Shown here: positions 27,760-44,972 of the stretch, in pieces
How positions within the stretch are numbered: the stretch's first letter is position 1
Layout: every line of letters starts with the position of its first letter
Assembly (NCBI RefSeq): GCF_002850745.1
Contig: NZ_KZ559471.1
Coordinates: 124,001-188,000, forward strand
DNA from: Nonomuraea indica
GTDB taxonomy: Bacteria > Actinomycetota > Actinomycetes > Streptosporangiales > Streptosporangiaceae
DNA: 64,000 nt
Reading direction: 5' to 3'
Notes under the pieces: model-generated
What the model saw: the letters and a program-made list of their open reading frames with translations, nothing else
What the model was told of the DNA's origin: nothing
The model's database searches: none
Translations under genes and position numbers: made by a program

Positions 27760-28796
27760 GCGGAATGCTCGTCCTCACGGTCGGCAGCGCCGCCTACCTC
27801 ATCAGCGGCCTGACCGTGCCGTCGTTCAAGCGCCTGGCGCTGCGCTGGGGCCTGACCGACCGCCCGAGCGAGAAGAAGGCCCACGCGCGGCCGACCCCGT
27901 ACCTCGGGGGGCTGGCCATCGTGCTCGGCACGGTCGCGCCGCTGCTCGTGGTGCTCCGCGACGCCGACCAGCGGATCGTCGCGATCCTGCTGGCCGGGGC
28001 GGTGATCACCCTGCTCGGGCTGATCGACGACATCAGGCCGCTGCCCGCCGTCACCCGGCTGACCGCCGAGGCGGTCGCCGCGACGGGCGTCGCGCTGTCC
28101 GGCGTGCACGTCACGCTGGTCGGCGGCTGGCCGGACCTGGTCGTCACGGTGCTGTGGATCGTCGTGATGACCAACTCGTTCAACCTGCTCGACAACATGG
28201 ACGGCGCCCTCGGGGCCATCGCCACGGCGACGGCCGGGCTCCTGTCCGCGACCGCGTTCGTCAGCGGCCACGCCGGGCTCGGCCTGCTGCTCGCCGGGTT
28301 GACCTGCGCGTGCCTCGGCTACCTCCCGCACAACTGGGCGCCGGCGCGGATCTTCATGGGCGACTCGGGGTCGCTGTTCATCGGCTTCGTGCTCACCTGC
28401 TCCGCCGTCCTGCTGGTGACGGGGCGCGGCCTGGACGTCACGGTCGCCGGCCTGCTCCTGCCGACCTTCGTCGCGGCAGTGGACACCGGGGTCGTCCTGC
28501 TGTCGCGGATCCGGGCGGGGCGTTCGCCGCTGATGGGCGGCACCGACCACGTGTCGCACCGGCTGCGCCGGACGGGGATGCCCGTGCGGGCGGTCGCCGC
28601 CCTGCTCGGCGCGGTCGCCGCCGGCGCCGGCGCGCTGTGGCTCGCCACCGTCCTGAGCCTGCTGCCGCCGCCGGCCGTGGCGGTCGTCGCGGTAGCCGCG
28701 ACGGCGGTCCTCGTCGGCCGCCTGCAGGGCGTGCACGTCTACGTGCCGATCGAACACCTCAAAGCTCCTCCGAGAATCCGTGAAAGGCGGCGTTGA
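27756..28796 (+). CDS. Undecaprenyl-phosphate sugar-1-phosphate transferase (WecA/TagO/MraY family)
   Basis: This 346-residue protein has about ten spans and starts polysaccharide assembly by moving sugar-1-phosphate onto undecaprenyl phosphate. Family motifs are clear: KKAHARPTPYLGG at the first cytoplasmic loop, the Asp pair in LIDDI, NSFNLLDNMDG, GDSGSLFIGF, and DHVSHRLRR with the conserved His. The GTG overlaps the previous stop (GTGA); an ATG three codons later is also possible. WecA-type enzymes usually load GlcNAc-1-P or a related sugar. It is the expected priming enzyme of this Wzx/Wzy locus. Confidence 0.93.
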   Translation: MSGMLVLTVGSAAYLISGLTVPSFKRLALRWGLTDRPSEKKAHARPTPYLGGLAIVLGTVAPLLVVLRDADQRIVAILLAGAVITLLGLIDDIRPLPAVTRLTAEAVAATGVALSGVHVTLVGGWPDLVVTVLWIVVMTNSFNLLDNMDGALGAIATATAGLLSATAFVSGHAGLGLLLAGLTCACLGYLPHNWAPARIFMGDSGSLFIGFVLTCSAVLLVTGRGLDVTVAGLLLPTFVAAVDTGVVLLSRIRAGRSPLMGGTDHVSHRLRRTGMPVRAVAALLGAVAAGAGALWLATVLSLLPPPAVAVVAVAATAVLVGRLQGVHVYVPIEHLKAPPRIRERRR

Positions 28797-28800
28797 TCCC

Positions 28801-30189
28801 GTGGATCTGCTCTATTACGTACGGCTGGCGCGCAGGAACTGGTTGCTCATCATCCTGTCGCTGGTCATCGGGGTGACCGCGGCGGTCATGGTCACCGCGA
28901 ACACGCCGCCGACGTACGTGGCGTCGACCTCCATGCTGGTCTCCGGCCACGACAAGGAAGGCAGCCTGTCCACCGCGTACCAGGCCGGGATGCTGTCGGC
29001 GCAGCGCGTGCAGTCGTACGCCACCCTGCTGTCCAGCCGCCGGCTGGTGAGCGAGGTCGTGGCCCCCGAGGACGTCCGGCGCGTGCAGGGCAACATCACC
29101 GCCGAGGTCGTCCCCGGCACGGTCCTGCTGCGCGCCTCCGTCACCGACACCGACCCGGCCCGCGCCGCACAGCTCGCCAACACCCTGGGCGCGCGCTTCA
29201 CCGACCTGATCGACCGGATCGAGCGGCCCACGCCCAAGAGCCACTCGACGATCAAGATCACCGTGGTGGACCAGGCGGAGGTGCCCCAGGCGCCCGTCAG
29301 CCCGCGCCCGACCATGAACGTCCTGTTCGGCGTGCTGATCTCGCTGCTCGTCGCGCTGGCCGCGCTGGTGCTGCGCGACCGGCTCGACACCACCGTCAAG
29401 AGCTCGCACACGCTGCAGCAGACCTCCGGCAGCTCCACGCTCGGCATCATCGGGTACGAGCGCGACGCCCGCCGCAACCCGCTGATCGTGCGCCGCAAGG
29501 GCCGCTCGTCCCGGGCGGAGGCGTTCCGGTCGCTGCGCACCAACCTGCAGTTCATCGGCGTGGACCGGCAGCCGAAATCGCTCGTCATCACGAGCTGCCT
29601 GCCGAACGAGGGCAAGTCGTCCACCTCGTCCAACCTGGCGATCACCCTCGCCCAGGCGGGCTGGCGGGTCATCCTGGTCGACGGCGACCTGCGCCGCCCG
29701 CGCATCCCCGACTACCTCGGCATCGAGGGCGGCGTCGGCCTGACCGACGTGCTGATCGGCCGCGCCCGGCTCGCCGAGGTCGTCCAGACCTGGGGAGAGC
29801 CGCGGCTGCACGTGCTGCCGAGCGGCCAGATCCCGCCGAACCCGAGCGAGCTGCTCGCCTCGCAGGGCATGCGGCAGGTGCTCGACCAGCTCACCGCCGA
29901 GTACGACATGGTGATCATCGACGCGCCGCCGCTGCTGCCGGTCACCGACGCGGCCACGCTCTCGGCGGTCTGCGACGGGACGATGCTGGTGGCCCGCTAC
30001 GGCAAGACGCGCCAGGAGCACATCCAGCGTGGCACCGAGCTGCTGGCGTCCATCAACGCCCGGGTCGTCGGCACGGTGCTGAACTTCGTGCCGGCCAAGG
30101 CCAGCCGCTACGACGGCTACGGATACGGCTACGGGTACGATTCGGCGCCCGAGGACGTGCCGCCGGTCAAGGCCCCGGCGGCTGTGTGA
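28801..30189 (+). CDS. Polysaccharide co-polymerase / BY-kinase (Wzz domain plus CpsD/CapB-type kinase)
   Basis: This 462-residue protein controls chain length and export. The first span (about 12-32) starts a Wzz domain, with a second span near 177-197 following VDQAEVPQAPVSPRP. The cytoplasmic kinase has Walker A (SCLPNEGKSS, near 264-273), Walker A' (VDGDLRRPR) and Walker B (VIIDAPPLLPVTD). A Tyr-rich tail (YDGYGYGYGYDS, near 436-447) is the autophosphorylation cluster. The GTG at 28801 lies 4 nt after the preceding stop; a GTG at 28780 is the alternative. Both halves are fused in one chain, as in other actinobacteria. The convergent gene is its likely phosphatase. Confidence 0.93.
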   Translation: MDLLYYVRLARRNWLLIILSLVIGVTAAVMVTANTPPTYVASTSMLVSGHDKEGSLSTAYQAGMLSAQRVQSYATLLSSRRLVSEVVAPEDVRRVQGNITAEVVPGTVLLRASVTDTDPARAAQLANTLGARFTDLIDRIERPTPKSHSTIKITVVDQAEVPQAPVSPRPTMNVLFGVLISLLVALAALVLRDRLDTTVKSSHTLQQTSGSSTLGIIGYERDARRNPLIVRRKGRSSRAEAFRSLRTNLQFIGVDRQPKSLVITSCLPNEGKSSTSSNLAITLAQAGWRVILVDGDLRRPRIPDYLGIEGGVGLTDVLIGRARLAEVVQTWGEPRLHVLPSGQIPPNPSELLASQGMRQVLDQLTAEYDMVIIDAPPLLPVTDAATLSAVCDGTMLVARYGKTRQEHIQRGTELLASINARVVGTVLNFVPAKASRYDGYGYGYGYDSAPEDVPPVKAPAAV

Positions 30190-30745
30190 GCAGCCGCAGC
30201 GGGGCGGCGAGCGCCTGCGCGATGCGCCGTCCCGCGGCCCGGTAGGTCCACCGGGAGCCGCCGAACGGGTCGGGGATGTCGGGCTGGTCCACGTGGACCA
30301 GCCCGCGCAGTGCCCGGGCCTGCTCGACCAGTGACCGCGCCCGCCGCGCCACGTCACGTTCGGCGGCCAGCGGCCCGGCGGGCACCTCCCGGCTCAGGGC
30401 GCCGAACTCGGCGATCGTGAACGTCCGCCCGGTCGCCGGCGGGTGCAGCGCCACCGCCTCGGCCCGGTGCGCCACCGTGGCCGTCAGCACCAGATCGGCG
30501 GCCGCCACCAGCTCACCGGTGAGCGGCCGCGAGGCGAACCCGTCCGGGTCGCCGCCGAGACCGAGCAGCACCCGCCGGGCGCGCTCGGTCATCTCCATGC
30601 CGGGCCTGGCCCGCGTGCCCGCGCTGGTCACCTGGAACGGCGGACCGAGCGCCGCACGCGTCAGCCGCTCGGCCAGCGGCGAGCGGCAGATGTTGCCCGT
30701 GCACACGAACAGGATGCGGAAATCCGGCTCCGGCGTACGCTCCAT
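30167..30745 (-). CDS. Low-molecular-weight protein-tyrosine phosphatase (Wzb-like)
   Basis: This 192-residue protein begins with the catalytic P-loop VCTGNICRSPLAE (C-x5-R-S). It has TSAGTRA shortly after and the general-acid loop VDQPDIPDPFGG near residue 165. The fold and length fit LMW-PTPs that dephosphorylate the tyrosine tail of BY-kinases. Its 3' end overlaps the BY-kinase gene tail-to-tail by 23 bp. The ATG at 30745 leaves a short leader before the strand that holds the P-loop. Confidence 0.92.
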   Translation of the reverse strand: MERTPEPDFRILFVCTGNICRSPLAERLTRAALGPPFQVTSAGTRARPGMEMTERARRVLLGLGGDPDGFASRPLTGELVAAADLVLTATVAHRAEAVALHPPATGRTFTIAEFGALSREVPAGPLAAERDVARRARSLVEQARALRGLVHVDQPDIPDPFGGSRWTYRAAGRRIAQALAAPLRLLTQPPGP

Positions 30746-30857
30746 GGGCGCGACCGTAGGCCGCGACGGCCCGGGACCCGCCCGCGGCACGCCGCCTTTT
30801 ACCCATCCCTGCCCCGCCCGGCTGCCCGGACAGCCGTCCGGTGCTCTGCCGCCCCGC

Positions 30858-32627
30858 TCAGCCGTCCGGGGTGCAGCCCCTGGTGTCCCACACGACCCGG
30901 GTCTGCTGCTGGCGGGCCAGCGGCTGCACCGGCACCACGGGCCTGGCCTGCGACGCGGGCTCCAGCAGGTGGAACTCCAGCGTGCGCGCCTGCCGGGGCG
31001 CGAAGTGCATCATCGTCGTGAGGACCGGATGGGAGCGCTCGACCGCCTGCAGCGCCGACGCGCTCCGCCCGTCGATCCGCACGCCGCCGAGCTTGGTGCC
31101 GGGCGCGGTGTAGAGCGAGACCCACAGCAGGTTCGAGCCCGGTGTGTGGCGCCGGCCCGGCCGGTCGAGCCGGCTGGTGACGTACTCGGGGAGCTTGCGC
31201 CGCGGCACGTCGTTGACCAGCCGGACCCGCACCCGCGAGACGCGGTGGCCGTCGGCGCGGCAGGGGCCGAGCCGGTACTCCACCTGCCGGTCCAGGTAGT
31301 AGTCGAGCTTGTTGCCGGCCGAGTTGTTGATCACCAGGCTCGCGTACGGGCCGGGCCGGCCGGGCAGCGTGCCGCCGAGCGGTGTCGCGGCCAGCCGTCG
31401 CTGCTCGGCGTCCCGGCGGCTCCAGATCTGCAGCCGGCGCTCGTGCACCATCTTCGACAGGACGGGCACCACCTGCCGCGGGTCCGGCCGGACGCGGGTC
31501 ACCGCGTCGGCGACGGCGCCGGCGATCCGCATGAGGAACCTCTTGCGGGCGTGCTGGTCGTCGTAGCGGGCGTACGCCTGCCGTTCGGTGAGGTCCACGA
31601 CGTTGTCGGCGGTCACCTTCTCGCCGCCGGGCAGGGAGACGGGCCCGATCAGCCGGAGCAGGTGGGACAGGCCGACGGGGTCGGTGGCGATGGCTCCGTC
31701 GAGCCGCCGCCCGTGCTGGCGCTCCCACAGGGCGGTCCAGGTGGCGGCGGCGTAGGGGAAGTGCGGGGAGAGGTTGGAGATGTTGAGGGCGGCCTGGGCG
31801 TTGCGGCCGTAGCGGGCGGTGTAGGTGGCCCCGTGGTCGACGACCGGCCGCGGGCTCGTCGCCAGCGCGCTGTTGGAGGAGAGCCCTTCGATGGCGAGCC
31901 CGTTCCGGCCGGCCTTGAGTATGCCGAACGCGCCGACCAGCCCGCCGGTCGCGCGGGCCTCGGCGTTGGTCTGGAACGCCAGGAAGTAGCGGCGCGGACC
32001 CTCGCGGCCCAGCATCGGAGGGAGGAGGACGGCGGCGTCGGAGGCGGCGCGGAGCCAGCCGTGCAGCCGGTCGACCTCGCGCAGCGCCGTGGCCCGCGCC
32101 TCGTCGACCTGGGTCACGCCGGTGTCCGCCGGGGTGGCGGCCAGGCGCGCCCGGGTGCCGGCGATCTTCGTGGTGGCGGCCGCCAGGGCCGGCGCGGAGG
32201 AGTCCAGACGGTCGAGCAGCTTGCCCATGTCGTCCACGGAGAAGCCACCCGGCTGGATCAGCCCCGCACCGGCCTGGTGGACGCCGGCGAGCACGCCGGT
32301 CAGGTCGGCGGCCGACTCGGCCAGGCCGCGAACGGTCGCCGCTCCGTCACCCACCACGGGTGAGTGGGTGAGCAACGACCAGTCCGGACCGCTGGTGAGC
32401 CGGCGCGCCTCGGCCGCGTGCCGCTGCGCGAGCGCGAGCGCCCCGCCCAGCCGAGCGGGGTCGCCCACGGGGAGGTTCTCCAGAGCGTTCCTGGTCGCTT
32501 CGAGCTGCTCCCGCACGTTCAGTCCGAGACGCGCCGACCACCCCCCGGCCAGCACGAGGCAGGCCACGGGGCTCAGCAGCCCGTATACGACGACTCGACG
32601 CCGGTTGAGGCGCTTCTTACTTGGCAT
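30858..32627 (-). CDS. DUF4012-family membrane-anchored protein
   Basis: This 589-residue protein has a basic N-terminus and one span (about 13-33). The rest is extracytoplasmic. Residues around 200-260 carry NAEARATGGLVGAFGIL, the conserved core of DUF4012; later LPGGEKVTADNVVDL and VINNSAGNKLDYYLDR also fit the family. DUF4012 proteins are common beside actinobacterial capsule loci, but their job is not known. Its start overlaps the stop of the LPMTG gene by 11 bp, so the two are co-translated. A lytic or ligase-type role in wall attachment is speculation. Confidence 0.85.
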   Translation of the reverse strand: MPSKKRLNRRRVVVYGLLSPVACLVLAGGWSARLGLNVREQLEATRNALENLPVGDPARLGGALALAQRHAAEARRLTSGPDWSLLTHSPVVGDGAATVRGLAESAADLTGVLAGVHQAGAGLIQPGGFSVDDMGKLLDRLDSSAPALAAATTKIAGTRARLAATPADTGVTQVDEARATALREVDRLHGWLRAASDAAVLLPPMLGREGPRRYFLAFQTNAEARATGGLVGAFGILKAGRNGLAIEGLSSNSALATSPRPVVDHGATYTARYGRNAQAALNISNLSPHFPYAAATWTALWERQHGRRLDGAIATDPVGLSHLLRLIGPVSLPGGEKVTADNVVDLTERQAYARYDDQHARKRFLMRIAGAVADAVTRVRPDPRQVVPVLSKMVHERRLQIWSRRDAEQRRLAATPLGGTLPGRPGPYASLVINNSAGNKLDYYLDRQVEYRLGPCRADGHRVSRVRVRLVNDVPRRKLPEYVTSRLDRPGRRHTPGSNLLWVSLYTAPGTKLGGVRIDGRSASALQAVERSHPVLTTMMHFAPRQARTLEFHLLEPASQARPVVPVQPLARQQQTRVVWDTRGCTPDG

Positions 32628-33354
32628 CGGTGGAGCGGCGACGCCTCATGGCGATGAGCGTGCCGGCGGCGCCGGCGAGCAGCAGGCCGGTGCCGGCTCC
32701 TGCCAGGGTGCTCACGGAGGACGTGCCCGTCATGGGCAGTTCCTTCTTGACGACCTCCTCGCAGTACCCTCCGTCGCAGTCGCCCTCGTCCCACCAGCCG
32801 TGGCCGAAGTCGTCGTCGAACTCCTTGCCGTCCTCGTCACCGATGTCGATGGTGAAGTGCTTGTCCTGCGTGGAGCTGCTGTCCTCGGACGTGCCGTCGG
32901 AGTCGTCCCCGTCGTCCCCGTCGGAGTCGTCGCCGTCCTCGTCGCCTTCGTGGTTGAGCGGGCCGGGCTTGACGATGCCCGTGGCGCCGTCCAGCTCGTG
33001 GGCGCTCGGGAACGACTGGATGTCGCTGAAGTCCCCGAGAGGCGCGAGGTTCGGGTCGTCCGAGGTCAGCGCGTTGTCGAACGCCTCCTGCTCCGACTGC
33101 GAGACGGCGATGGCGTCGGCGTCCGCCTCGTTGTCGTTCTCGTTCACGTTGTTGTTCACGATGTTGGCGCAGACGTTGACGTCACCCCCCTCGGGGCAGT
33201 CGATCGGCGCCGGCGGGTACGGCTGGAGCGCCGCCAGCATGGGAGACGGGTGGGAGGCGGCACCGGCCTCCGTCGCCATCCCCGTGCTGGCGAACGCCAA
33301 TCCACTCCCGACGGCCACCGCGGCCAGGATGGATTTCCTGATTTTTATTGCCAT
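32617..33354 (-). CDS. Acidic LPXTG-type surface protein (sortase substrate)
   Basis: This 245-residue secreted protein has a signal peptide at residues 1-33. The mature part is rich in Asp, Glu and Ser, with an Asn-rich stretch (NIVNNNVNENDNE) and a Gly-Asp-Asp-Ser array. The C-terminus is a complete sortase signal: LPMTG at 206-210, a hydrophobic span and a MRRRR tail. Two Cys pairs (CPEGGDVNVC and CDGGYC) could form disulfides. It should be covalently fixed to the peptidoglycan. No sortase gene is in the window. It is the first gene of an operon with the DUF4012 gene. No known homologue is recognised for the central region. Confidence 0.82.
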   Translation of the reverse strand: MAIKIRKSILAAVAVGSGLAFASTGMATEAGAASHPSPMLAALQPYPPAPIDCPEGGDVNVCANIVNNNVNENDNEADADAIAVSQSEQEAFDNALTSDDPNLAPLGDFSDIQSFPSAHELDGATGIVKPGPLNHEGDEDGDDSDGDDGDDSDGTSEDSSSTQDKHFTIDIGDEDGKEFDDDFGHGWWDEGDCDGGYCEEVVKKELPMTGTSSVSTLAGAGTGLLLAGAAGTLIAMRRRRSTDAK

Positions 33355-34326: not shown

Positions 34327-34920
34327 TTAACCCGTGACACGCTCGGCGAGTGTCCGGGCCGTGCTCGAGTCGGGGCCCGGCTGCGCCACGAACACCGCCG
34401 CGCGGTAGTAGCGCAGCTCCCTGATGCTCTCGGTGATGTCGGCCAGCGCCCGGTGCCCGCCCTGCTTCTCGGGCGCGGCGAAGTAGACGCGGGGGTACCA
34501 GCGCCGCACCAGCTCCTTGATCGACGAGACGTCGATCATGCGGTAGTGCAGGTAGGCGTCGACCGCGGGCATGTCGCGCGAGAGGAACGTCCGGTCGGTG
34601 CCGATGGAGTTGCCGCACAGCGGCGCCTTCTTCGGCTCGGGGATGTGGCGGCGGATGTAGTCGAGCACGTACGACTCGGCCTCGGCCAGCGTCACCCCGC
34701 CCTGCAGCTCCGGCAGCAGGCCCGAGGCGGTGTGCATCTCGCGGACCACCTGCGACATCTGCTCCAGCGACTCCGGCGGCGGCTTGATGACCACGTCGAC
34801 GCCCTCGTCCACCTGGTTGAGCTCGCTGTCGGTGATGACGCACGCCACCTCGACGAGAGCATCACGACCGAGGTCGAGCCCGGTCATCTCGCAGTCGATC
34901 CAGACCAGCAAGTCACTCAT
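34327..34920 (-). CDS. orn: Oligoribonuclease
   Basis: This 197-residue 3'-5' exonuclease of the DEDDh class degrades di- and short oligoribonucleotides, including pGpG from cyclic-di-GMP. Exo I is [12 protein letters not shown], Exo II contains [10 protein letters not shown], and Exo III is [14 protein letters not shown]. The length is normal. GGAG lies 6 nt before the ATG at 34920. It is a conserved housekeeping gene and an anchor for placing the locus on the chromosome. Confidence 0.97.
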
Positions 34921-34990
34921 TCGCACTCCTCGCCCAAGCGGCTCGGAGCTGCCCGCCCGCTTGCTCACACGTCCAGCCTAGTGCCATGCG

Positions 34991-36394
34991 TCAGGCCGGC
35001 TTCAGCGAGCCGAGAACCTGATCCACCACATCGGTGCCGAGATTGTCCGGAACGGACACGTACACGATCGCCGGACGCTCGCCCTCGCCGCGATCCATGA
35101 GGACGATCGCGCCGTTCTCCTTCTTCCACTTGTAGTCCCGCTCCTTCGACACCGTGCTGAAGTCGAGCTCGAACTGGAACACCCACGCGTCCCTGTCGCC
35201 CACCTTCGTCGCCTTGTCGGCGACGATCTTGGTCTGGTGGGAGAGCTGGTAGAACCGGGCGAAGTCGGTGAAGACCAGCTTGGCCGTCGTGCCGAGGCTC
35301 TGGGTGCCGGCGTAGGGGTAGAGCTCGTGCAGCGAGCCCGTGTAGACGTTGCCGATCCAGTCGTCGGTGCCGTCGTACTTCTCGTGCGAGACCGCCTGCA
35401 CGGCGCTCGACCAGCGCTGGCGCGCCGGGTCGGTGCCGTTGACGGAGCCGTAGGCCGGCACGGTCCAGCCCCGCGGCGGCGCGTAGGAGATGCCGGCCTG
35501 CCCGTCGGTGATGCGGCCGTCCTGCGGCTGCGGCAGCTCGCCCGTCGGAGGCGGCGGCTCCGAGGACTGCCCCGGGTCCGGGGACTGCCGGGGCTCGGTG
35601 GGCGTCGCCGTCGGCGGCAGCGCCGTGCCGGGGGAGTCGTCCCGGTTGACCAGGAAGATCGCCGCCGCGGCCAGCACGCCGATCACGACCAGCGCGGCCA
35701 CCCCGCCGAGCACCCAGGGCAGCGGGTTGCTCCGCTTGGGCGGCCCTCCGAAGCCGGGGCCGGGAAGCTGCGCGCCGCTCCACTGCGCCGGCTGGTGCCC
35801 CTGCCCGTACGGGGACTGCCCGTATCCGGGCTGCCCGTACCCGACCGGCCCGGACGGGGGCTGCCCATAACCCGGCTGCCCGTAACCCGGCTGCCCGAAC
35901 CCTGGCTGCCCGTAGCCCTGCTGGGGCTGGTCCGGCTGCCCGAACCCCGGCTGACCGTGATCCTGCGGGCCGGACCCGGGCTGGCCGTGACTCTGCGGGC
36001 CGGACCCCGGCTGGCCGTAACCCTGCGGGCCGGATGTGGCCGGTCCGGGAGGGGGCTGGTCGTGGCCCGGCTGTCCGGGCGCGGCAGGGTCCGACGGGGC
36101 GCCGAACGGCTGCCGCGCCTCGCCCGGCCCCGACGGCTGCGCCGGGCCCTCCCCGTACGGGGACAGCCCGGGCAGCGGCTCGCCGAAGCGGAGGGTCGGG
36201 TTGGCCGGCGTGACGGGCACGTCGGGGACGGTGCGCGGCCCCGACGGCTGCCCCTGGGGCGCCGGCTGCTGATGCTGCTGCCCGCCCGGTTCGACCGGGT
36301 GGGTGGCGTCGGTCCACTGGCCGCCGTCCCACCAGCGGAGTTGGGGCGATCCGTAAGGGTCGGGGTACCAGCCCGCGGGGGTCTGCGTGGTCAT
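34991..36394 (-). CDS. DUF2510 membrane protein with Gly/Pro/Gln-rich repeats
   Basis: This is a 467-residue protein. Residues 1-40 are a DUF2510 module ([22 protein letters not shown]). The next 170 residues are a disordered cytoplasmic segment of [10 protein letters not shown]-like repeats rich in Gly, Pro, Gln and Tyr. A single span follows at about 228-250 ([22 protein letters not shown]), then a Pro-rich stalk and an extracellular domain of about 170 residues with no recognised name. DUF2510 is an actinobacterial domain of unknown function often joined to membrane anchors. It is on the same strand as the kinase genes upstream. A protein-interaction role is plausible but not shown. Confidence 0.8.
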
Positions 36395-36444: not shown

Positions 36445-38100
36445 TCAGCACTTGTACGTGAAGGACGCCTTGTCCGTCATGCGGGGGCCGGGCGACAGCA
36501 CGACGAGCGTGGCCGTGGCCTTGACGGTGCTGCGTCCCTTGAGCCGCCACCGCAGCGGCACCTCGTACGTGGTCCGGTCCGAAGCGGTGCGCAGCGTCTG
36601 CCTGACCACCTCGTCGTCCGTGCTCTTGCGCCACTCGTAGGTGACCTCGCCGGGCGCGCCGTTGGTGACGATGGTGCCCTTGACGACCACGGCGCTGTCG
36701 CAGCCCTGGGTCTTCTTCGGCGCCTCGACCTCGATCGAGGCGACCGTCAGTGCCGGGGTGTCGCCGAGCTTGAACCAGGCCAGGATCGCTCCGGCGACGA
36801 CGACCGCGAGGACCGCCGCCGACACGACCGTCCGGCGGCGGCGCGCGCGGCCCGCCCGGTCGCGGATCGTGCCGGCCCGCTGAAGCGTCTCCGCCTCCGC
36901 CCTCCCCTCCCGCCAGATCCGCTCCGCGGTGGTCTCCTGCGTCCCCTGCCGCGTCCCGACGCCCGGCCCGAACCGCACCGGCCCCGAGCCCCCGCCGTTC
37001 CCCGCCCCGCCGCCGGCGCCGCCACCCATCGCGCCACCAGTCCCGCCGCCCGTCCCGCCGCCGGAGGAGCCGCCTGTCCCGCCACCGCCGTACGGTCCGC
37101 CGGGTGCGCCGCCCGTCCCGCTGCCCGGCACGTGGAGGAGCGTCACGATGTCGCCCTCGTCGCGGGGGACCACGCCGTAGGCGGGCGGCCTCTCGTCCGG
37201 GGACTGGCGGGCGAACGCCGACCGGCCGCGCGCGGCCTGGATGAGCCCTTCACGACTGATCACGCCGCCCGGCAGCGCGCCGCGCCCGCCGAGCAGCAGG
37301 TCCCGGGCGGCGGCCAGACCGTAGCCGGTCGCCGTCGCCGCCGCCCGCTCCACCAGCTCCACGACTCCCGGCCCACCGGACGCGCCACCCGCACCAGCGA
37401 ACGCGCCACCCGCACCAGCAGCGAACGCGCCGCTCGCGCCTCCCGCACCGCCGGACGGGCCTCCCGCACCGCCGGACGGGCCGCCGGACGGGCCGCCGGA
37501 CGGGCCGCCGGACGGGCCGCCGGACGGGCCTGCTGTGCCGCCGGTGAGTGATGCGGCCAGGCTGCGGGCCAGGGAGGCCCACGCCGCCACGTCGTTGCCG
37601 GGTGGTGAGAGGTGGCCGCGGACGGCGTCGGCCAGCCCGCGCTCCGACAGCAGCGCCACCCCGTCGGCCCCGACGACCACGGTCCGCGGGTGCAGCGAGC
37701 CGTGCGTGACGCCCGCCGCGTGCAGCGCCAGCAGCGTATGCGCCGTGTCCACCAGCACCGCCACCGCGCCGCCCGCGTCCAGCCGGGCCGCGGCCAGCAG
37801 GTCGGCCAGGGTGGGGCTGACCGCCTGGGCGGTGAGCAGCCACACCTGCTCACCGGCCGCGACCACGTCGGCCACCAGTATCAGGCCGCCGGTCCCGCCG
37901 GCCACCAGCCGCTGGTCGGCCAGCACGGCCGCCACGACCCGTTCGCGCACGCCGGGCAGCCCGATCACCCGCGGATCGAACAGCAGCGCCCCGGCCCTGC
38001 GGCCGTCGGGCGAGATCGCGTCGATCCAGTTGCCCAGCTCGGTGTGCCAGGTGTGCTGGGTGAGCCGGAAGCCGGCGATTCCGTCCCTCGTGTTCTCCAT
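36445..38100 (-). CDS. Membrane protein with degenerate Ser/Thr kinase-like domain
   Basis: This is a 551-residue protein. Residues about 60-190 follow the C-lobe pattern of protein kinases but lack catalytic residues: the catalytic loop reads HGSLHP (133-138) where active enzymes have HRD-x4-N, the DFG triad is replaced by LLSERG, and no Gly-rich loop or Lys is seen. Two Gly-rich low-complexity stretches (about 195-260 and 320-375) precede a span (about 430-450), and an extracellular Ig-like domain of about 100 residues ends the chain at a Cys. It precedes no active domain of its own but sits directly downstream of two active receptor kinases, so it is a likely pseudokinase partner. The function is inferred. 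Confidence 0.72.
   Translation of the reverse strand: MENTRDGIAGFRLTQHTWHTELGNWIDAISPDGRRAGALLFDPRVIGLPGVRERVVAAVLADQRLVAGGTGGLILVADVVAAGEQVWLLTAQAVSPTLADLLAAARLDAGGAVAVLVDTAHTLLALHAAGVTHGSLHPRTVVVGADGVALLSERGLADAVRGHLSPPGNDVAAWASLARSLAASLTGGTAGPSGGPSGGPSGGPSGGPSGGAGGPSGGAGGASGAFAAGAGGAFAGAGGASGGPGVVELVERAAATATGYGLAAARDLLLGGRGALPGGVISREGLIQAARGRSAFARQSPDERPPAYGVVPRDEGDIVTLLHVPGSGTGGAPGGPYGGGGTGGSSGGGTGGGTGGAMGGGAGGGAGNGGGSGPVRFGPGVGTRQGTQETTAERIWREGRAEAETLQRAGTIRDRAGRARRRRTVVSAAVLAVVVAGAILAWFKLGDTPALTVASIEVEAPKKTQGCDSAVVVKGTIVTNGAPGEVTYEWRKSTDDEVVRQTLRTASDRTTYEVPLRWRLKGRSTVKATATLVVLSPGPRMTDKASFTYKC
37471..37530 (-). repeat. 12-bp tandem repeat, five exact copies
   Basis: The unit gccggacgggcc is repeated five times without change. 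On the coding strand it specifies Gly-Pro-Ser-Gly repeats in the linker of the degenerate kinase. It is in frame, so copy-number change would alter linker length only. Confidence 0.85.
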
Positions 38101-38121
38101 CGCCGTCGCTCCCCGGTGCCG

Positions 38122-39825
38122 CTAGCGCTTCCTCCGATGCCGCCCTGCCACGCGGCGCTTCACCGCCAGTGTGACGGGCACCGTGCCGGACGTCACCAGC
38201 CCGGCCGCGAGCAGCGTGGCCGCGGCCGTCCCGGTGGACTCGGGGACCGGGGTCGCGCCGTCGGACCCGGTCGCCCTGGGCGTGCCCGACCCGCCGTCCC
38301 CGCCGCCGTCACCGCTCGTCGGCGTGCCGGCCGTACCCGACGGGGTGGCCGCGGGGGAGGAGGCGGGAGGCGAGGAGGCGGAGGGACGGGCGGTGGTGGG
38401 CGAGGCCGACGGGACGGGCGACCGCGTCGCCCGCGTGGTGGGCGGGTCGTCGACCGTGCCGGTGATCTCCGGGTCGGGCGACTCGCTGGGCGTCGGCCTG
38501 CCGGTGGACCTGACCGGGGTGGGCGTCGGCCGCCGCGACGGTGACGTCGACGCCTTCGGCGTGGGGCTCTTCGTCGTGGCGACCGGGACGGCGGCCGACG
38601 TCGTGGGCCGCGTCACCGGTTCGTCGGACGTCGATGCGGTGGGCGACGCCGTGGGCTCCTCGGTCTCCTCCGGGACGTCGTCGGCCGGTTCGTCGGTGGG
38701 TTCGTCAGTGGTGTCGTCGGCGGGTTCGAGCGTCGCGGGCTCGGCCGTGGTCGGCGTCACCTCCGAGCTCTGCGCGCGCAGCGCCGCGTCGTCGTCGAAG
38801 GCGTTCACCGCGACCATCGTCACGCCCACCAGCAGGCCGACACAGACCGCACCGATGAGGATCTTCGTGGAGAGCTTGGCGAGCAGCCCGGACGGCTGGT
38901 CGAACGTGGTCTCGGCGAGCGAGGTCCGCGTCTCCGCCGGCACGTCCGGCTTGTTGGGGAACAGCAGGGCGAGCAGGCCGGCGAGCCGCGCCAGGCGGCG
39001 GCGCCCGCGCTCCTCCCAGTCGGGCCCGTACGCCTCGGCGGCGATCGCCTCCAGTTCGGTGAGGAACGCCTCGGCCGACGGCGGCCGCTCGGCGGCGTTC
39101 TTGGCCAGGCCGCGTTCGACCAGGCCACGAAGCGGCTCGGGCACCTCCTCGACCGGAGGCTGCACACTCTGGTGCTGCCGGGCGAGCGCGGCGAGGTTGG
39201 ACGCCCGGAACGGCCGCGCGCCGGTGAGGCACTCGAAGAACACGACCGTGGCGGCGTAGACGTCTGTGGCGGGCGCCGCGGCGGCTCCCGACCACTGTTC
39301 CGGCGCCATGTACGGCGGGGTGCCCGCGGCGCTGCCGCCTTCACCGGTGCGGACGGCGATGCCGAAGTCGACGAGTTTGCTGGCGCCGTCGCCCTGGACG
39401 ACGACGTTCTCGGGCTTGAAGTCTCGGTGCACCACGCCGATCGCGTGCGCGGCCGCCAGGCCCTTCAGCGAGCCCTTGAGCACGGTCAGCGCGGCCTCCG
39501 CCCCGGTGGGCCCCTCCGACCGGAGGATCTGGCGCAGCGAAACCCCGTTGACGAGCTCCATGACGATCGCGGCGCCGGACCCGGTCTCGACGTAGTCGAT
39601 CAGCCGGGCGTTGTACGGGCTGCGCAGGGTGGCGAGCAGCCGGGCCTCGTGCCGGAACCGGGCGACGAAGCCCACGTCGTACCTGAGCTGGTCGGCCAGG
39701 TACTTGACGGCGACCTCGGCGCCGTCGTGGTCACGCCTCGCCAGGACCACCCGGCCGGCGGAACCGCTCCCGAGCTCGCGGACGGCGCTGTACCCAGGGA
39801 CCTCCCACTGCTCATCACCGTGCAT
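38122..39825 (-). CDS. Receptor-type Ser/Thr protein kinase (PknB-like, no PASTA)
   Basis: This 567-residue active-looking kinase has a Gly-rich loop GSGSAGRV (19-26), Lys41 in VAVKYL, HRDFKPEN (133-140), DFG (153-155) and APEQWSGA activation-segment end. The juxtamembrane region is followed by a span (ILIGAVCVGLLVGVTMVAV). Then comes a long Thr/Pro/Ser-rich extracellular stalk of about 200 residues, and a second hydrophobic segment near the C-terminus with a basic end (RRVAGRHRRKR). So the tail may return through the membrane or act as an anchor signal. GAGGAG precedes the ATG at 39825. PASTA repeats, the usual wall-sensing part, are absent. Confidence 0.9.
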   Translation of the reverse strand: MHGDEQWEVPGYSAVRELGSGSAGRVVLARRDHDGAEVAVKYLADQLRYDVGFVARFRHEARLLATLRSPYNARLIDYVETGSGAAIVMELVNGVSLRQILRSEGPTGAEAALTVLKGSLKGLAAAHAIGVVHRDFKPENVVVQGDGASKLVDFGIAVRTGEGGSAAGTPPYMAPEQWSGAAAAPATDVYAATVVFFECLTGARPFRASNLAALARQHQSVQPPVEEVPEPLRGLVERGLAKNAAERPPSAEAFLTELEAIAAEAYGPDWEERGRRRLARLAGLLALLFPNKPDVPAETRTSLAETTFDQPSGLLAKLSTKILIGAVCVGLLVGVTMVAVNAFDDDAALRAQSSEVTPTTAEPATLEPADDTTDEPTDEPADDVPEETEEPTASPTASTSDEPVTRPTTSAAVPVATTKSPTPKASTSPSRRPTPTPVRSTGRPTPSESPDPEITGTVDDPPTTRATRSPVPSASPTTARPSASSPPASSPAATPSGTAGTPTSGDGGGDGGSGTPRATGSDGATPVPESTGTAAATLLAAGLVTSGTVPVTLAVKRRVAGRHRRKR

Positions 39826-39937
39826 AACGGTCTCCTCTGGAGTCTTCTGGGCCCCCACCCAAAACAAACGCACCGTAGCTTAACCAGAAAGGACCGCTAT
39901 CCGCCCATTAGTAGATGAATCAGGTTGAAATCGCAGG

Positions 39938-42502
39938 TCAACGGACTGTGCCGGTTCCCGCCGCCGGGGTCTCCTTCGTACGTCCGTCCTGCGGGCGTGG
40001 CTCCGCCGGCTCGCCGTCCCCGGGCTGCTCCTCCGGCGGAGGCTCCGACGGCGGGCAGGCGGCGGTCCGTCCCGATCTCACGGCGGCGCCGTTGCCCGCC
40101 GCCGGGTCGGTGACCGCCCGCACCCGCCAGGTCGCGCCGCACGGCACCTCGCCGAACGCGTGAGCGATCGTCCTCGTGTAGGAGGCGCCGCCCGACAGGC
40201 TGAGCCGTTCGGTACGCGACAGCTCGCCCACGGTGAACGAGACGGTGAGTCCCACCGGCTGCTCGTTGACCGTGTTCACCACGACGACCGCGGTGGCGGT
40301 GCCGGGCTCGGCCATCGCCGCCCGCACGATCGACACGCGCTGGACGCCCGGCGGGCAGCTCACCCGGGTGCGGGCCGTGGCCTGCCGGTCCCCGGCCGTC
40401 ACCAGCACCGTGAGCGTGGCGCCGCACGGGCGGCTGCGGAAGGCGTGGCCGAGCGACCGGCTGTAGGAGGTGCTGCCGGACAGCGTCGCCTCCCTGGTGG
40501 CGACCGTGTCGCCGTTCACCGCGAACCTGGCCCGCACGGGCACCGCCGCCGTGCCGCTGGTCGCCACCCGGATCCGCGCGGTGGCCGACCGGCCCGGCCC
40601 GTGGGCCATGGCGAGCGCGACCCGCAGGTTCGTGACCGTGGTGGGGCAGGGCGGCACGGCCAGCGTGGCCGTCCCGGCGCCGCCGGGTGCGGCGGGGGTC
40701 GTGGCGACGGTGAGGGTGACCGTCCGGCCGCAGGTCCGCCGGCCGAGGTCGTGGCTGAGGGTGCGGGTGTAGGAGGTGTCGCCGCTCAGGGACGAGCGCT
40801 GGGTGTCGACGACGACGCCGCCGACCGCCCACGTGGCGGTGACGGCGATGGGGGCGGTGCCGGTGGCCCGGACGGTGACCGTGGCGGCGGCGACGGCCTC
40901 GGCGTTCACCGTGAGGGACCCGACGCCGATGGCGGCCACCGCCGTGCCCGGCGTCGGCGTCGCCGTCGGGGTCAGTGTCGGGGTGGGCGTCGGGGTGGGC
41001 GTCGGTGTCGGTGTCGGTGTCGGGGTGGGCGTCGGGGTCCGGGTGGGTGTCGGGGTGGGAGTGGGAGTCCGCGTGGCCGTGCGGGTCGGCGTGGGGGTCG
41101 GCGTGGGGCTGCCGGTCCTCGTCGGGGTGCCCGTGGTCGGGCGGATCGTCTGCGGGGTGGTGGGGGAGACGCTCGGCCGAGGAGTGTCCGTCCGCGTCCC
41201 GGGCGTCCCCGACGTCCGTGGCGGCGTCGGCTGCGGCGGCGTCGTGCGCGGGCCGCCGGTCTCGGGCCCGCGCGGCTCCGGGCCTTCGGTCTCCGGGCCG
41301 CCGGTGCCCGGAACGGACGGCAGGACGCCGGGTGACGGGTCGCCGGTCACGCTGCCGGACGGCGGCGTGACCGGCTCCGGCGAGCCGCTGTCGCCCGGAT
41401 CGGGCAGAGGGCCCGGGGAGCCGAGCTGGGCCGGGCCCGGCTGCGACGGCGCGGCGGCCACGTCGAAGGACTTCGGCCCCTGCGTCCGCCCGGACAGCAC
41501 GGCCACCGCGGCGATGGTGACCACGGCGGCCAGCCCCGCGCCCATGCCGAGCCGTACCGCGTGGTTGCGCGCGCCACGCGCCGCCCCACGGAACACCGTC
41601 TGCGCCAGCGAGGTGGTCACCTCGGCGGGAGGCGGCTCCGGCGTGGGCAGCAGCATGGCGAGCAGCCCCACGAGCGCGGCCAGCCGCCGCCTGCCGCGCT
41701 CCTCCCAGTCGTCGCCGTAGGCGGCCCTGGCCGCCTCCTCCAGCTCGGTCACGAACACCTCGGCGCGGGCGGGCCGGTCGGCCGGGTCCTTGGCCAGGCC
41801 GCGCATGAGCAGCTCGCGGACCGCTTCGGGGGCGTCGTGCACCGGGACGGGCGCGTACACGTGCTGGTAGCCGAGCACGCTCGGCTCGGTGGACCGGTAG
41901 GGCCGGTGACCGGTCAGGCACTCGAAGAAGACCGCCGTCGCCGCGTACACGTCGGTCGCCGGCGAGGCGGGCGCGCCCGCCCACAGCTCCGGCGCCATGT
42001 ACGGGGGCGTCCCCGCGGGAGTCGAGGCCGTGCCCTGGCGGACGGCGATGCCGAAGTCGACGAGCTTGCTGACGCCGTCAGGACGGACGATGACGTTCTC
42101 GGGCTTGTAGTCGCGGTGCACCAGGCCCGACGCGTGCGCCCTGGCGAGCCCGAGCAGCGAACCCTTGAGCACGACCAGTGCCGCCTCCGGCCCCGTCGTG
42201 CCGTTCTCGCGCAGCAGCGCGCGCAGCGAGACGCCGTTGACCAGCTCCATGACGATGGCCGCGCCCTCGGGCTCCTGCACGTACTCCCACAGCGTCGCGA
42301 TGTGCGGGTCGCGCAGCGTCATCAGCAGGCGGGCCTCCGCCTGGAACCGGTCCAGTGCCTCGGGGTCGTTCAGCAGCCGCGCGGACAGGTACTTGACCGC
42401 GACCCTGACACCTGTCTCGTCGTGCACCGCGAGGACGACCCGGCCCCCGGCACCCGCGCCGAGCTGCCTGACCTCGGTGTAACCCGGAGCGCTCCACTCC
42501 AT
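39938..42502 (-). CDS. Receptor Ser/Thr protein kinase with Thr-Pro stalk and three Ig-like repeats
   Basis: This is an 854-residue kinase. The catalytic domain has GAGAGGRV, Lys37 in VAVKYL, HRDYKPEN (129-136), DFG (149-151) and APELWAGA. A span lies at about 318-334. The outside part is a Pro/Gly/Thr stalk ending in a Thr-Pro dipeptide run (about 464-514). Three homologous domains of about 100 residues follow, each with an LSG-x-TSY-TR/SR-x-L-x-H-x-F/L segment and a Cys in a CG motif. The tail is Pro/Glu-rich. GGGAGG precedes the ATG. It and the kinase gene downstream have nearly the same catalytic domain, so they arose by duplication and then gained different sensor regions. The ligand is unknown. 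Confidence 0.9.
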   Translation of the reverse strand: MEWSAPGYTEVRQLGAGAGGRVVLAVHDETGVRVAVKYLSARLLNDPEALDRFQAEARLLMTLRDPHIATLWEYVQEPEGAAIVMELVNGVSLRALLRENGTTGPEAALVVLKGSLLGLARAHASGLVHRDYKPENVIVRPDGVSKLVDFGIAVRQGTASTPAGTPPYMAPELWAGAPASPATDVYAATAVFFECLTGHRPYRSTEPSVLGYQHVYAPVPVHDAPEAVRELLMRGLAKDPADRPARAEVFVTELEEAARAAYGDDWEERGRRRLAALVGLLAMLLPTPEPPPAEVTTSLAQTVFRGAARGARNHAVRLGMGAGLAAVVTIAAVAVLSGRTQGPKSFDVAAAPSQPGPAQLGSPGPLPDPGDSGSPEPVTPPSGSVTGDPSPGVLPSVPGTGGPETEGPEPRGPETGGPRTTPPQPTPPRTSGTPGTRTDTPRPSVSPTTPQTIRPTTGTPTRTGSPTPTPTPTRTATRTPTPTPTPTRTPTPTPTPTPTPTPTPTPTPTLTPTATPTPGTAVAAIGVGSLTVNAEAVAAATVTVRATGTAPIAVTATWAVGGVVVDTQRSSLSGDTSYTRTLSHDLGRRTCGRTVTLTVATTPAAPGGAGTATLAVPPCPTTVTNLRVALAMAHGPGRSATARIRVATSGTAAVPVRARFAVNGDTVATREATLSGSTSYSRSLGHAFRSRPCGATLTVLVTAGDRQATARTRVSCPPGVQRVSIVRAAMAEPGTATAVVVVNTVNEQPVGLTVSFTVGELSRTERLSLSGGASYTRTIAHAFGEVPCGATWRVRAVTDPAAGNGAAVRSGRTAACPPSEPPPEEQPGDGEPAEPRPQDGRTKETPAAGTGTVR
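40963..41113 (-). repeat. Thr-Pro dipeptide-coding microrepeat
   Basis: About 150 bp of ggtgtcggggtgggcgtc-like hexanucleotide units (plus-strand view) encode an almost uninterrupted Pro-Thr run with a few Arg residues, in the stalk of the receptor kinase. Such runs are rigid and are common sites of O-mannosylation in actinobacteria. Slippage would change stalk length in steps of two residues. Confidence 0.75.
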
Positions 42503-42587: not shown

Positions 42588-43226
42588 CTACCGTCGGCCG
42601 CTGATGTGAACAGGTACGTCGATACCTTCTGGGAGCACCGGATCGGGCAGCGGAGCGCCCCACGAGGTCTCCAGCGGCAGCACCCCCGCCCAGACCGGCA
42701 GGGCGTAGTCCTCGGGCTCGTCGCTCGGCCCGCCGCGCCGGATCTTGACGGACGCCTCCTCCAGCGACAGGGCCAGGACGGCCGTGGCCGCCAGCTCCTT
42801 GCGTGACGGCGGCCGGGCGTGGTCCCACTGGCCGGGGGCGAGCTGCTCGGTCAGCGCCCGCAGTCCCGCGAGCCGTTCCTCCTCGTCCGTCACCAGTCTG
42901 GCCCGGCCGTAGACGATGGCCGAGCGGTAGTTCACGGAATGGTGGAAGACCGACCGGGCGAGCACGATCCCGTCCACGTGCGTGACCGTGACGCACACCT
43001 CCGTGCCGTCGCCGGCGCGCAGCGAGCGCGCTCCGGTGGAGCCGTGCAGGTAGAGGGTCTCGCCGATGCGGCCGTATCCGGTCGGCACCACCATCGGGTA
43101 TCCGTCGACCACCACGCCCAGGTGGCAGAACAGGCCGGTGTCGAGCACCTCGTACAGGTCGCTCCGGCCGGTACTGCCGCGCTGCTTCTCGCGACCGAGC
43201 GTGGTGCGGGATGTGGTGGAGAGCAT
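42588..43226 (-). CDS. Pyridoxamine 5'-phosphate oxidase-family flavin protein
   Basis: This 212-residue protein has a split-barrel fold of the PNPOx-like FMN/F420-binding superfamily. Motifs include VVVDGYPMVVPTGYGRIGETLYLHGS and the later HHSVNYRSAIVYGRA strand pair, which together bind the cofactor. It is not classical PdxH, whose signatures are absent. It is transcribed away from a MocR-type regulator across 72 bp containing a palindrome, an arrangement typical of a regulator and its target. A vitamin B6 link is possible but unproven. Confidence 0.85.
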   Translation of the reverse strand: MLSTTSRTTLGREKQRGSTGRSDLYEVLDTGLFCHLGVVVDGYPMVVPTGYGRIGETLYLHGSTGARSLRAGDGTEVCVTVTHVDGIVLARSVFHHSVNYRSAIVYGRARLVTDEEERLAGLRALTEQLAPGQWDHARPPSRKELAATAVLALSLEEASVKIRRGGPSDEPEDYALPVWAGVLPLETSWGAPLPDPVLPEGIDVPVHISGRR

Positions 43227-43246
43227 GCGTTCGACGCTAGCCGCGA

Positions 43247-43271
43247 AGTGGACCTATCCTGTAGGGCCACT
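43247..43271. promoter_or_regulatory. Palindromic candidate operator in the PNPOx/MocR divergent promoter
   Basis: Arms AGTGGACCTA (43247-43256) and TAGGGCCACT (43262-43271) match at 9 of 10 positions around a 5-nt spacer. It lies in the 72-bp gap between the two divergent starts and overlaps a TATCCT sequence that could be a -10 box for the regulator gene. The likely binder is the MocR protein encoded next to it. Confidence 0.55.
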
Positions 43272-43298
43272 ATCGAGCGCTTCTTGGAGACCACTTTC

Positions 43299-44972
43299 GT
43301 GCGCAGCCTCGTCGATCTGCCCGTAGCCCTGGACCGGGGAGCGGCCACGCCGCTGTCGGCCCAGCTCGCCGACTGGCTGCGGCGGGCCATGCTGGCGGGC
43401 ACGCTCGCGCCGGGGGAGCGGCTTCCGTCGTCGCGCGGGCTCGCCGCGCAGCTCGGGGTCAGCAGGACCGTGATCACGGAGGCGTTCCAGCAGCTGTACG
43501 CCGAGGGGTGGCTGGAGGGGCGCCACGGCTCGGGCACGTTCGTCGCCCCCGCCGAGACGCCCCGCCGCCCCGCCCCGGCGGGCACGACCGGTCTGGGCCC
43601 GCCGGGTCGCGCGACGACCGGCCCGGGCGGCGGCTGGGGCGCCGGCCGGGGTGGCGGCGAGGGCGGCCCGAGCGTGCCGGAGCGGGGAGGCGCCGCGCCG
43701 GCCGAGGTCCCGGACCCCGCGACCGCGCACGGCGCGTCGGCGATCCCGAACGGCACGGCCTCCGGCGGCCCCCAGCGCAACGCCGTGCTGTCCCCTGGAC
43801 CCCGGGCCGGCCGGAACGGCATGACCTCCCACGGACCCCAGGTCCGGAACGGCACGGCGTCCCACGGGCCCCAGGCCCGGAACGGCACGGCGTCCGGTGG
43901 TTCCCCGGTGGACCTGCGGCCCGGACATCCCTGGGTGCGCGACTACGACGAGCCCGCCTGGCGGCGCGCCTGGCGCAGGGCCGCCGACCTGCCCCCCGGA
44001 GGCGACCCGGACCCGTACGGCCTGCCCCACCTCAGGCGACTGCTGGCCGACCACCTGAGGCGCACCAGGGCCGTGACCGTCGGCCCGGAGAACATCCTCG
44101 TCACCCGCGGCACCGGCAACGGCCTCGACCTGTGCGCCCTGGCCCTGCTCGCCGGCGGCGGCCGGGCGGGAGTGGAGGAGCCCGGCTACCGGGTGGCCCG
44201 CGCGGTGTTCGCGGCCAGGGGCGCCGAGATCGTGCCCTGCCCGGTCGACGAGGACGGCGTGGTCGTCGACGGCCTCCCCGCCGATCTCGGTCTGCTCTAC
44301 ACCACCCCGGCCCACCAGTTCCCGCTCGGCGCGCGCCTGCCGATCCCGCGCCGCGAACGCCTGCTGACTTGGGCGCGTGCCACCGGCGCGATGGTCGTCG
44401 AGGACGACTACGACGCCGAGTTCCGCTACGACGTCGCGCCGCTGCCCGCCCTCTTCGGGCTGGACCCGTCGCGCGTCGTGCTGCTCGGCACCCTGTCGAA
44501 GACGCTGGCTCCGGACGTGGGGCTCGGCTGGCTGGTCGGCACCGAGGAGCTGGTGCACCGGGTCGCGGTCCTGCGGGACGAGCTGGGCGACCGGACCAGC
44601 GGGCCGGTCCAGCAGGCCGTCGCCACCCTGCTGGAGCGCGGCGACCTCGACCGTCACCTGCGCCGCATGCGGCTGGAGTACGCCCGCCGCCGGGCGACGG
44701 TCGTCGAGTCGCTGGGCGGCGTGTGCCGGCTGCGCGGCGACACGGCCGGGCTGCACGTCCTCGCCGAGCTCCCGGCGGACGCGGTCGCGCCGCTCGTCGC
44801 CGCCGCCCGCGAGGAGGGCGTCCTGCTCGACTCCACCGACCGCCACCACCACGGGCCGACGCGGGTGCACGGCCTCGTCATCGGGTACGGCTCCGCCTCG
44901 CTGCCGGAGGTGCGCCGCGGGTGCGCGATCCTCGCCCGGCTCATTGCGCAGCGAACCCGAGCGGCGTTCTAA
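43299..44972 (+). CDS. MocR-type regulator (GntR winged helix fused to aminotransferase-like domain) with a long repetitive linker
   Basis: This is a 557-residue protein. Residues 1-75 form a GntR-type winged helix (LPSSRGLAAQLGVSRTVITEAFQQL, abbreviated here as SSRGLAAQLGVSRTVI, then EGWLEGRHGSGTFV). From about 205 to the end lies a fold-type I aminotransferase domain with the PLP lysine K401 in LGTLSKTLAPD. MocR proteins sense PLP or a related amine. The linker (about 80-205) is unusually long, low in complexity, and contains repeats of the type GPQ-RNGTAS. The GTG at 43299 was chosen from the domain boundary and a TTGGAGA site 10 nt upstream. The divergent flavin gene is its likely target. 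The next two genes follow at 9 bp and by overlap. Confidence 0.88.
   Translation: MRSLVDLPVALDRGAATPLSAQLADWLRRAMLAGTLAPGERLPSSRGLAAQLGVSRTVITEAFQQLYAEGWLEGRHGSGTFVAPAETPRRPAPAGTTGLGPPGRATTGPGGGWGAGRGGGEGGPSVPERGGAAPAEVPDPATAHGASAIPNGTASGGPQRNAVLSPGPRAGRNGMTSHGPQVRNGTASHGPQARNGTASGGSPVDLRPGHPWVRDYDEPAWRRAWRRAADLPPGGDPDPYGLPHLRRLLADHLRRTRAVTVGPENILVTRGTGNGLDLCALALLAGGGRAGVEEPGYRVARAVFAARGAEIVPCPVDEDGVVVDGLPADLGLLYTTPAHQFPLGARLPIPRRERLLTWARATGAMVVEDDYDAEFRYDVAPLPALFGLDPSRVVLLGTLSKTLAPDVGLGWLVGTEELVHRVAVLRDELGDRTSGPVQQAVATLLERGDLDRHLRRMRLEYARRRATVVESLGGVCRLRGDTAGLHVLAELPADAVAPLVAAAREEGVLLDSTDRHHHGPTRVHGLVIGYGSASLPEVRRGCAILARLIAQRTRAAF

Follow-up and report, generated by a model that had tools for sequence, protein, structure and literature searches.

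PsK, a membrane pseudokinase of Nonomuraea indica, is encoded directly after the Ser/Thr kinase KinB, with a second kinase, KinA, often further upstream. We propose that these genes form a lineage-specific module for signalling at the membrane, with KinB, often together with KinA, encoded alongside a dead partner, PsK, that would be its substrate, and we put the probability of this reading at somewhat under one half (about 45%). The adjacency of kinase and PsK is constant across the loci compared, which suggests that the two act jointly as one sensor. All three genes lie in the window, the whole stretch of 64,000 nucleotides analysed here, which is surrounded by a genome of 8.29 Mb with 58 Pkinase matches.

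The locus and its two membrane kinases

KinA, KinB and PsK were all confirmed on the minus strand at the coordinates of the original prediction (Table 1). The minus-strand order is PLPox-like gene, KinA, KinB, PsK, DUF2510 protein, Orn-like gene and tRNA-His, and the gap between KinB and PsK is 21 nt. For KinB the ATG at 39825 was used as the start, and its open frame reaches back to a GTG at 39873. Three of the neighbours we take to be a pyridoxamine-phosphate-oxidase-like (PLPox) gene, a MocR-type gene and an oligoribonuclease (Orn)-like gene. Elsewhere in the window, the minus-strand frame at 32617-33354 encodes a small protein that looks secreted and has an acidic run and, by eye, a C-terminal sortase signal of the LPMTG type. 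At 28780-30790, what is presumably a capsule-type Wzz/BY-kinase-like gene lies beside a gene that we take to resemble low-molecular-weight protein tyrosine phosphatases, a pair that suggests an exopolysaccharide region.

Table 1 Positions of the kinase-PsK locus, its protein features and its neighbours in the window.
Feature	Position	Strand	Remarks
MocR-type gene (presumed)	42819-44972	+	open frame; divergent to PLPox-like gene; conserved neighbour
PLPox-like gene (presumed)	42588..43226	-	upstream of KinA, co-directional; conserved neighbour
KinA, receptor Ser/Thr kinase, 854 aa	39938..42502	-	Pfam Pkinase 144 bits
KinA catalytic domain, residues 8-249	about 42481-41756	-	followed by TM, Thr-Pro stalk and three Ig-like repeats
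KinA Ig-like repeats, residues 519-615, 620-716, 717-812	40067..40948	-	iterated profile, 97-101 bits each
KinB, Ser/Thr kinase	38122..39825	-	Pfam Pkinase 145 bits
PsK, membrane pseudokinase, 551 aa	36445..38100	-	
PsK pseudokinase domain, residues 5-297	37210..38088	-	model, VIA, alignments
PsK linker motif DEGDIVTLLHVP, residues 314-325	37126..37161	-	cytoplasmic; alignment of 35 sequences
PsK linker motif ETTAERIWREG, residues 389-399	36904..36936	-	cytoplasmic, before TM
PsK TM helix, about residues 421-446	36763..36840	-	model helix; hydrophobic in alignment
PsK Ig-like outside domain, residues 453-550	36451..36744	-	seven strands, pLDDT mostly >90
DUF2510 membrane protein	34991..36394	-	Pfam DUF2510 45.6 bits; next gene after PsK
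Orn-like gene (presumed)	34327..34968	-	last of co-directional block; anchor for locus searches
tRNA-His	34261-34188	-	beyond Orn-like gene

By motif, KinA and KinB appear to be active-type Ser/Thr kinases. Their catalytic domains share 62-63% identity and retain HRDYKPEN (KinA) or HRDFKPEN (KinB) together with LVDFG in both, in agreement with the original prediction of two similar domains with intact HRD-x4-N and DFG motifs. Among the related loci, the beta3 Lys, HRDxKPEN and DFG patterns were all present in 52 of 53 KinB-type and 34 of 40 KinA-type sequences, and the remaining one and six, respectively, miss at least one of them. The dN/dS values were 0.09 and 0.16 for KinB and 0.22 and 0.25 for KinA (two comparisons each). 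Within its own genome KinA is matched best by KinB and next, at 51%, by KinC (G000:C12; L194:2962-4737, plus strand, contig 12), which keeps HRDVTPGN and DFG and has one KinA-type domain on the outside; in the 8 kb stretch around it no match to a separate PsK gene was obtained.

The outside parts of the two kinases differ, also as predicted. KinB consists, after its kinase domain, of TM1, a Thr/Pro-rich loop, a second hydrophobic segment and a short basic C-tail, whereas KinA ends in three Ig-like repeats. A pattern for the hydrophobic-plus-basic tail of KinB before PsK, which proved too strict, matched in 43 of 53 loci; among the ten misses the tail was seen by eye in five (L043, L044, L047, L082, L205), the sequence is apparently partial or frameshifted in two (L083, L203), and in L086, L098 and L200 it was found neither by pattern nor by eye. 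A model of the outside part of KinA (pLDDT 92) shows seven-strand sandwiches, and this part matched a GH2 mannanase with a VIA Z of 11.8 (1.9 A over 94 residues). The matched part of GH2 enzymes is Ig-like. The structural matches of this region are generic Ig/FN3-like folds, and the ligand is therefore not readable from them. KinA proteins of other loci carry 1-3 copies of the repeat, those of L046 in another frame; PsK and KinA of that locus, like KinB of L034, are split over frames.

In profile searches of the outside regions, suggested with the original prediction, the KinA part gave no Pfam match at E<=1, and the best match for PsK among 20 members had an E of 0.0085 (Gmad2), below the cut-off in the member inspected. 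The absence of PASTA repeats was confirmed, with no Pfam match for PASTA at E<=1 in KinA, KinB or PsK. Yet this absence is the rule here: PASTA repeats occur in the same open frame as a Pkinase match in only 3 of 58 cases in this genome, and non-PASTA kinases are thus ordinary in it. KinA shares with PknB-type PASTA receptor kinases a cytoplasmic kinase, one TM and repeated outside domains, but the repeats are Ig-like, and KinB instead has a Thr/Pro loop and two hydrophobic segments; against NCBIfam PknB_PASTA_kin the kinases scored 175 and 193 bits, compared with a cut-off of 450.

A kinase fold with lost catalytic residues in PsK

Structural modelling strongly indicates that the cytoplasmic domain of PsK has a protein-kinase fold. 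The model, built on an alignment of 35 sequences, has pLDDT mostly >90 over residues 10-190 and 244-290. Compared with solved kinases it gave VIA Z scores of 17-19 among the 50 matches listed, including PknA (4ow8; Z 17.7, rmsd 3.2, 214 residues aligned), and the kinase fold proposed for the 36445-38100 protein thus withstood structure prediction. Among the best 60 of 271 matches of a profile of 22 orthologous PsK N-domains, PAK4 ranked first (E 1.7e-7) and Pkn kinases had E values of 3e-5 to 1e-4; the Pfam kinase match of PsK itself is sub-threshold (10.7 bits). Most of the aligned relatives have little or nothing of the Gly-rich insert that interrupts the domain (about residues 195-239).

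PsK is, with strong indications from the alignments, predicted to be a catalytically dead kinase-like protein. It reads HGSLHPRT where HRDxKPxN is expected and LLSERG where xxDFG is expected. The reported HGSLHP, the missing DFG and the single Ig-like outside domain (453-550) were all recovered. In 54 aligned PsKs the beta3 Lys is always Leu and the DFG Asp always Glu; Ser (24) or Ala (30) takes the place of the HRD Asp, and the catalytic-loop Asn survives in two and has been replaced in the other 52. Between the DFG position and the alphaF Asp lie 14 residues in all 11 PsKs measured, compared with 31-32 residues in 13 KinA/KinB and 35-40 in 17 other kinases of the genome. The kinase-like domain is under constraint, with dN/dS of 0.36-0.55 in four comparisons. 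We rejected a decaying pseudogene on the basis of this dN/dS below 1 and of 39 columns that do not vary among 35 sequences of 21 genera.

Two motifs stand out in the linker that follows. In DEGDIVTLLHVP, columns T320, L321 and L322 are conserved in at least 90% of 35 sequences and the rest is eroded in several rows of other genera; Thr320 is a candidate phosphosite. In the second motif W396 is invariant, and R397 and G399 reach at least 90% of the same 35 sequences. The alignment also contains two invariant Cys, at residues 467 and 551. An hhalign comparison of the Ig-like domain of PsK with the KinA repeats (E 0.0005 over 44 columns, probability 32%) gives a faint hint that they may be one family. 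In the KinA protein of one other locus (L098:6195-8534, minus strand), the PsK-type Ig profile picks out the last domain (655-765) at a domain E of 0.00026, possibly the result of a domain swap between KinA and PsK.

Spread, gene order and relation to MviN-type pseudokinases

PsK orthologs were found in 24 of 24 other genomes of the same genus (E <= 1.9e-57), or 25 of 25 with its own, and PsK is therefore not a chance occurrence. The same search of 16 genomes outside the genus gave weak matches only, with a best E of 8.7e-9. Among 100 genomes of the host's family, strong matches (E <= 2.5e-45) occurred in at least 35, from at least 22 of 68 genera, and two further matches were weak (about 1e-13). 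Presence was judged from at most the best 33 candidates per genome in the family set and 42 in the class set, and PsK-negative genomes may for this reason hold missed copies. Across 79 genomes of the class, at least three of the five family members, own genome included, had a strong match; the 74 non-family genomes had none among the candidates scored and weak matches in three. Of these weak class-level matches (E about 1e-12), one, L144, proved to be an active kinase with HRDVKPSN, L145 is MviN-type-looking with, by eye, a discoidin-like tail, and L143 was interrupted in the frame translated.

Gene order was compared at 54 PsK loci (the window, L001, L032-L050, L081-L100 and L200-L212), of which 53 could be scored, L085 being cut upstream; four Nonomuraea loci (L008, L012, L013, L022) in which the contig begins or ends near PsK were left out of these counts. 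A kinase gene lies immediately upstream of PsK in 53 of 53 loci. The two genes overlap or are separated by 30 nt or less in 46, and the other seven gaps are 51-358 nt, with starts guessed by script. KinA was present further upstream in 42 of 53 loci, including two cut by the contig (L045, L202), one short (L210) and one ambiguous (L086), and was not found in the other 11 (L043, L082, L089-L092, L097, L206, L208, L211, L212). The constant unit is therefore the kinase-PsK pair, with KinA optional. The original prediction that the three genes are kept together holds for the pair only, and we rejected the KinA-KinB-PsK trio as a conserved unit. L086:4174-9432 (minus strand) carries two kinase-PsK pairs in tandem; one of its kinases, which carries two Ig-like repeats of the KinA type, has degenerate motifs (HRDCRPGN, LADTG).

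Of the 65 family genomes with no strong PsK match, 22 were searched for orn and 19 orn loci were fetched. In two of these kinases are present and PsK is missing: L124 has the order KinA-KinB-DUF2510-orn, and L125 has one kinase at the locus. Four loci (L126, L131, L133, L138) show MocR-PLPox-DUF2510-orn with no kinases, three (L123, L128, L129) retain part of the gene block, and ten have none of it except orn. DUF2510 stands beside orn with no kinases in six loci, two of which, L123 and L129, also lack MocR and PLPox. On a simple reading of these gene orders, the kinases would have entered between PLPox and DUF2510, and PsK would have been gained or lost.

The closest described counterparts of PsK are the ActPs3 pseudokinases, which a review (PMC12599244) describes as having lost the catalytic motifs and the activation loop, with a TM after the domain in many members. 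The same source reports that the C-terminal tail of M. tuberculosis MviN is phosphorylated by PknB and then recruits the FHA domain of FhaA, and gives 3UQC as an MviN structure. PsK resembles MviN in that its motifs are all lost, its activation loop is deleted, its TM is C-terminal to the domain and its host is actinobacterial; it differs in being neither fused to nor beside MurJ, in having its own Ig-like domain and in lying directly after a kinase gene. The activation segment of nine MviN-type proteins spans 14-16 residues, against 14 in PsKs. The N. indica genome has a separate pseudokinase gene after MurJ, not fused to it (L166:485-2053, minus strand, contig 7), and PsK is a second pseudokinase distinct from this MviN-type gene. 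Over about 226 residues the L166 protein can be matched to the MviN structures 3oun, 3uqc and 3otv, which carry the name 'probable conserved transmembrane protein', and higher scores were reached by PknB and further active kinases. By eye, the C-terminal part of the L166 protein is discoidin-like.

In our careful tree, a branch with 98/95 support separates PsK and the nine MviN-type proteins from all active kinases, although the PsK stem is very long (2.43) and long-branch attraction is therefore possible. The support for this branch was 94, not starred, in the quick tree. KinA/KinB and KinC form a 100/100 clade in the careful tree with PsK outside it; trees constrained to join PsK with KinB (p-AU 0.079) or with both KinA and KinB (p-AU 0.084) were not rejected. 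Given that clade, an origin of PsK as a decayed copy of KinA/KinB is not favoured. The mean identity of PsK to MviN-type proteins (0.192), KinA/KinB (0.180) and other kinases (0.193) does not separate the choices, and the hhalign scores against PsK were 59.6, 71.7 and 118.8, respectively. MviN structures were not among the 50 VIA matches listed or the best 60 of 271 profile matches, which excludes nothing. D78 of PsK (Asp in 54/54) shares a column with an Asp of three MviN-type rows. By the description in the review PsK appears ActPs3-like rather than a proven member, and it may share descent with MviN-type proteins.

The proposed module and its alternatives

In the module that we propose, PsK would pair with KinB and also serve as its substrate. 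Docked on KinB, the dead domain would hold the kinase or tune its activity, and a kinase would phosphorylate a Thr in the conserved linker on the cytoplasmic side. Once phosphorylated, this linker would attract a downstream protein of the FHA type, in the way reported for MviN and FhaA. An outside signal would come in through KinB's Thr/Pro loop and through the Ig-like domains that PsK and KinA carry. The MviN precedent may be taken to support the phospho-adaptor half of this scheme, and the receptor-partner half would follow by analogy. HER3 with HER2 is a eukaryotic example of kinase/pseudokinase partners. The pseudokinase domain of TYK2, named in the review (PMC12599244), offers a similar analogy, with a dead, kinase-like domain as the partner of an active kinase. 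Here PsK and the kinase differ from the eukaryotic pairs in being separate polypeptides, with a bacterial Ser/Thr kinase, and the pairing is one that we infer. Points against the module are that kinases exist without PsK (L124, L125), that one L086 PsK follows a degenerate kinase and that DEGDIVTLLHVP has worn away in several sequences of other genera. On the original prediction the three proteins may form a heteromeric receptor with PsK as scaffold or regulator, which stays a hypothesis here. A stricter version, an obligate KinB-PsK membrane heteromer with allosteric activation or holding of KinB by the dead domain, sensing by the Ig-like domains and KinA as an optional arm, we consider doubtful.

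A conserved order of genes can by itself stem from co-expression or from retention by chance. Protein distances were compared by a mirror-tree analysis of distance matrices in which the distances of orn, MocR and PLPox were removed and residual correlations were set against 300 permutations. It covered 35 or 43 of the 54 loci, after L086, L034 and sequences below 70% of the median length were dropped. The PsK-KinB pair gave no signal, with residual correlations of 0.07 (51/300 as high; 35 loci) and 0.08 (19/300; 43 loci). PsK-DUF2510 reached 0.31 in both sets (0/300), PsK-KinA 0.26 (0/300; 35 loci) and KinB-DUF2510 0.18 (5/300; 35 loci) and 0.27 (0/300; 43 loci). This crude distance test lends no support to direct KinB-PsK contact and, if it means anything, would point to DUF2510 or KinA, rather than KinB, as the nearer partner of PsK. 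That PsK and KinB were simply retained side by side in a stable part of the chromosome near orn, without a functional tie, fits this missing signal and a neighbourhood that is partly stable even where kinases are absent. We regard it as quite unlikely, given the adjacency in 53/53 loci from 22 genera with 46/53 gaps of 30 nt or less while KinA varies, and given the two kinase-PsK pairs in L086. It is improbable, too, that PsK serves the DUF2510 membrane protein, with the kinases as upstream inputs sharing the operon: the top residual correlation of PsK is with DUF2510, which also stays beside orn in the six kinase-free loci, but DUF2510 is the most divergent protein compared, so that its correlation may be alignment noise, and KinB correlates with it as well.

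An alternative is a reading in which PsK acts only as a phospho-dependent adaptor by the logic of MviN, its linker being phosphorylated and an FHA protein recruited with no stable receptor complex. The M. tuberculosis MviN pseudokinase domain is so described in the review (PMC12599244), and the short activation segment common to both groups, their shared side of the 98/95 branch (94, not starred, in the quick tree) and the Thr-containing motifs of the PsK linker point the same way. The PsK Ig-like outside domain and the constant kinase adjacency would go unexplained, and we think the adaptor-only reading rather unlikely. A catalytic PsK, with other transferase chemistry on the kinase fold, is very improbable for a protein that has lost the beta3 Lys, the HRD Asp and the activation loop, even though HGS/HGA keeps its His and Gly, and the DFG site its Glu-x-Gly, in 54/54 PsKs and the review names SelO and SidJ as divergent pseudokinases, SidJ being a polyglutamase (PMC12599244).

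Bacterial pseudokinases and receptor Ser/Thr kinases are both known kinds of protein; in the titles and abstract openings of the papers listed by our literature searches, the kinase-PsK gene pair was not described. Bacterial pseudokinases are called experimentally little explored in the 2025 review (PMC12599244). With its place after a kinase gene in 53/53 loci, its spread over 22 genera and an outside domain of its own, PsK offers a natural test case for the question of whether bacterial dead kinases may serve as receptor partners or allosteric regulators, like those of eukaryotes.
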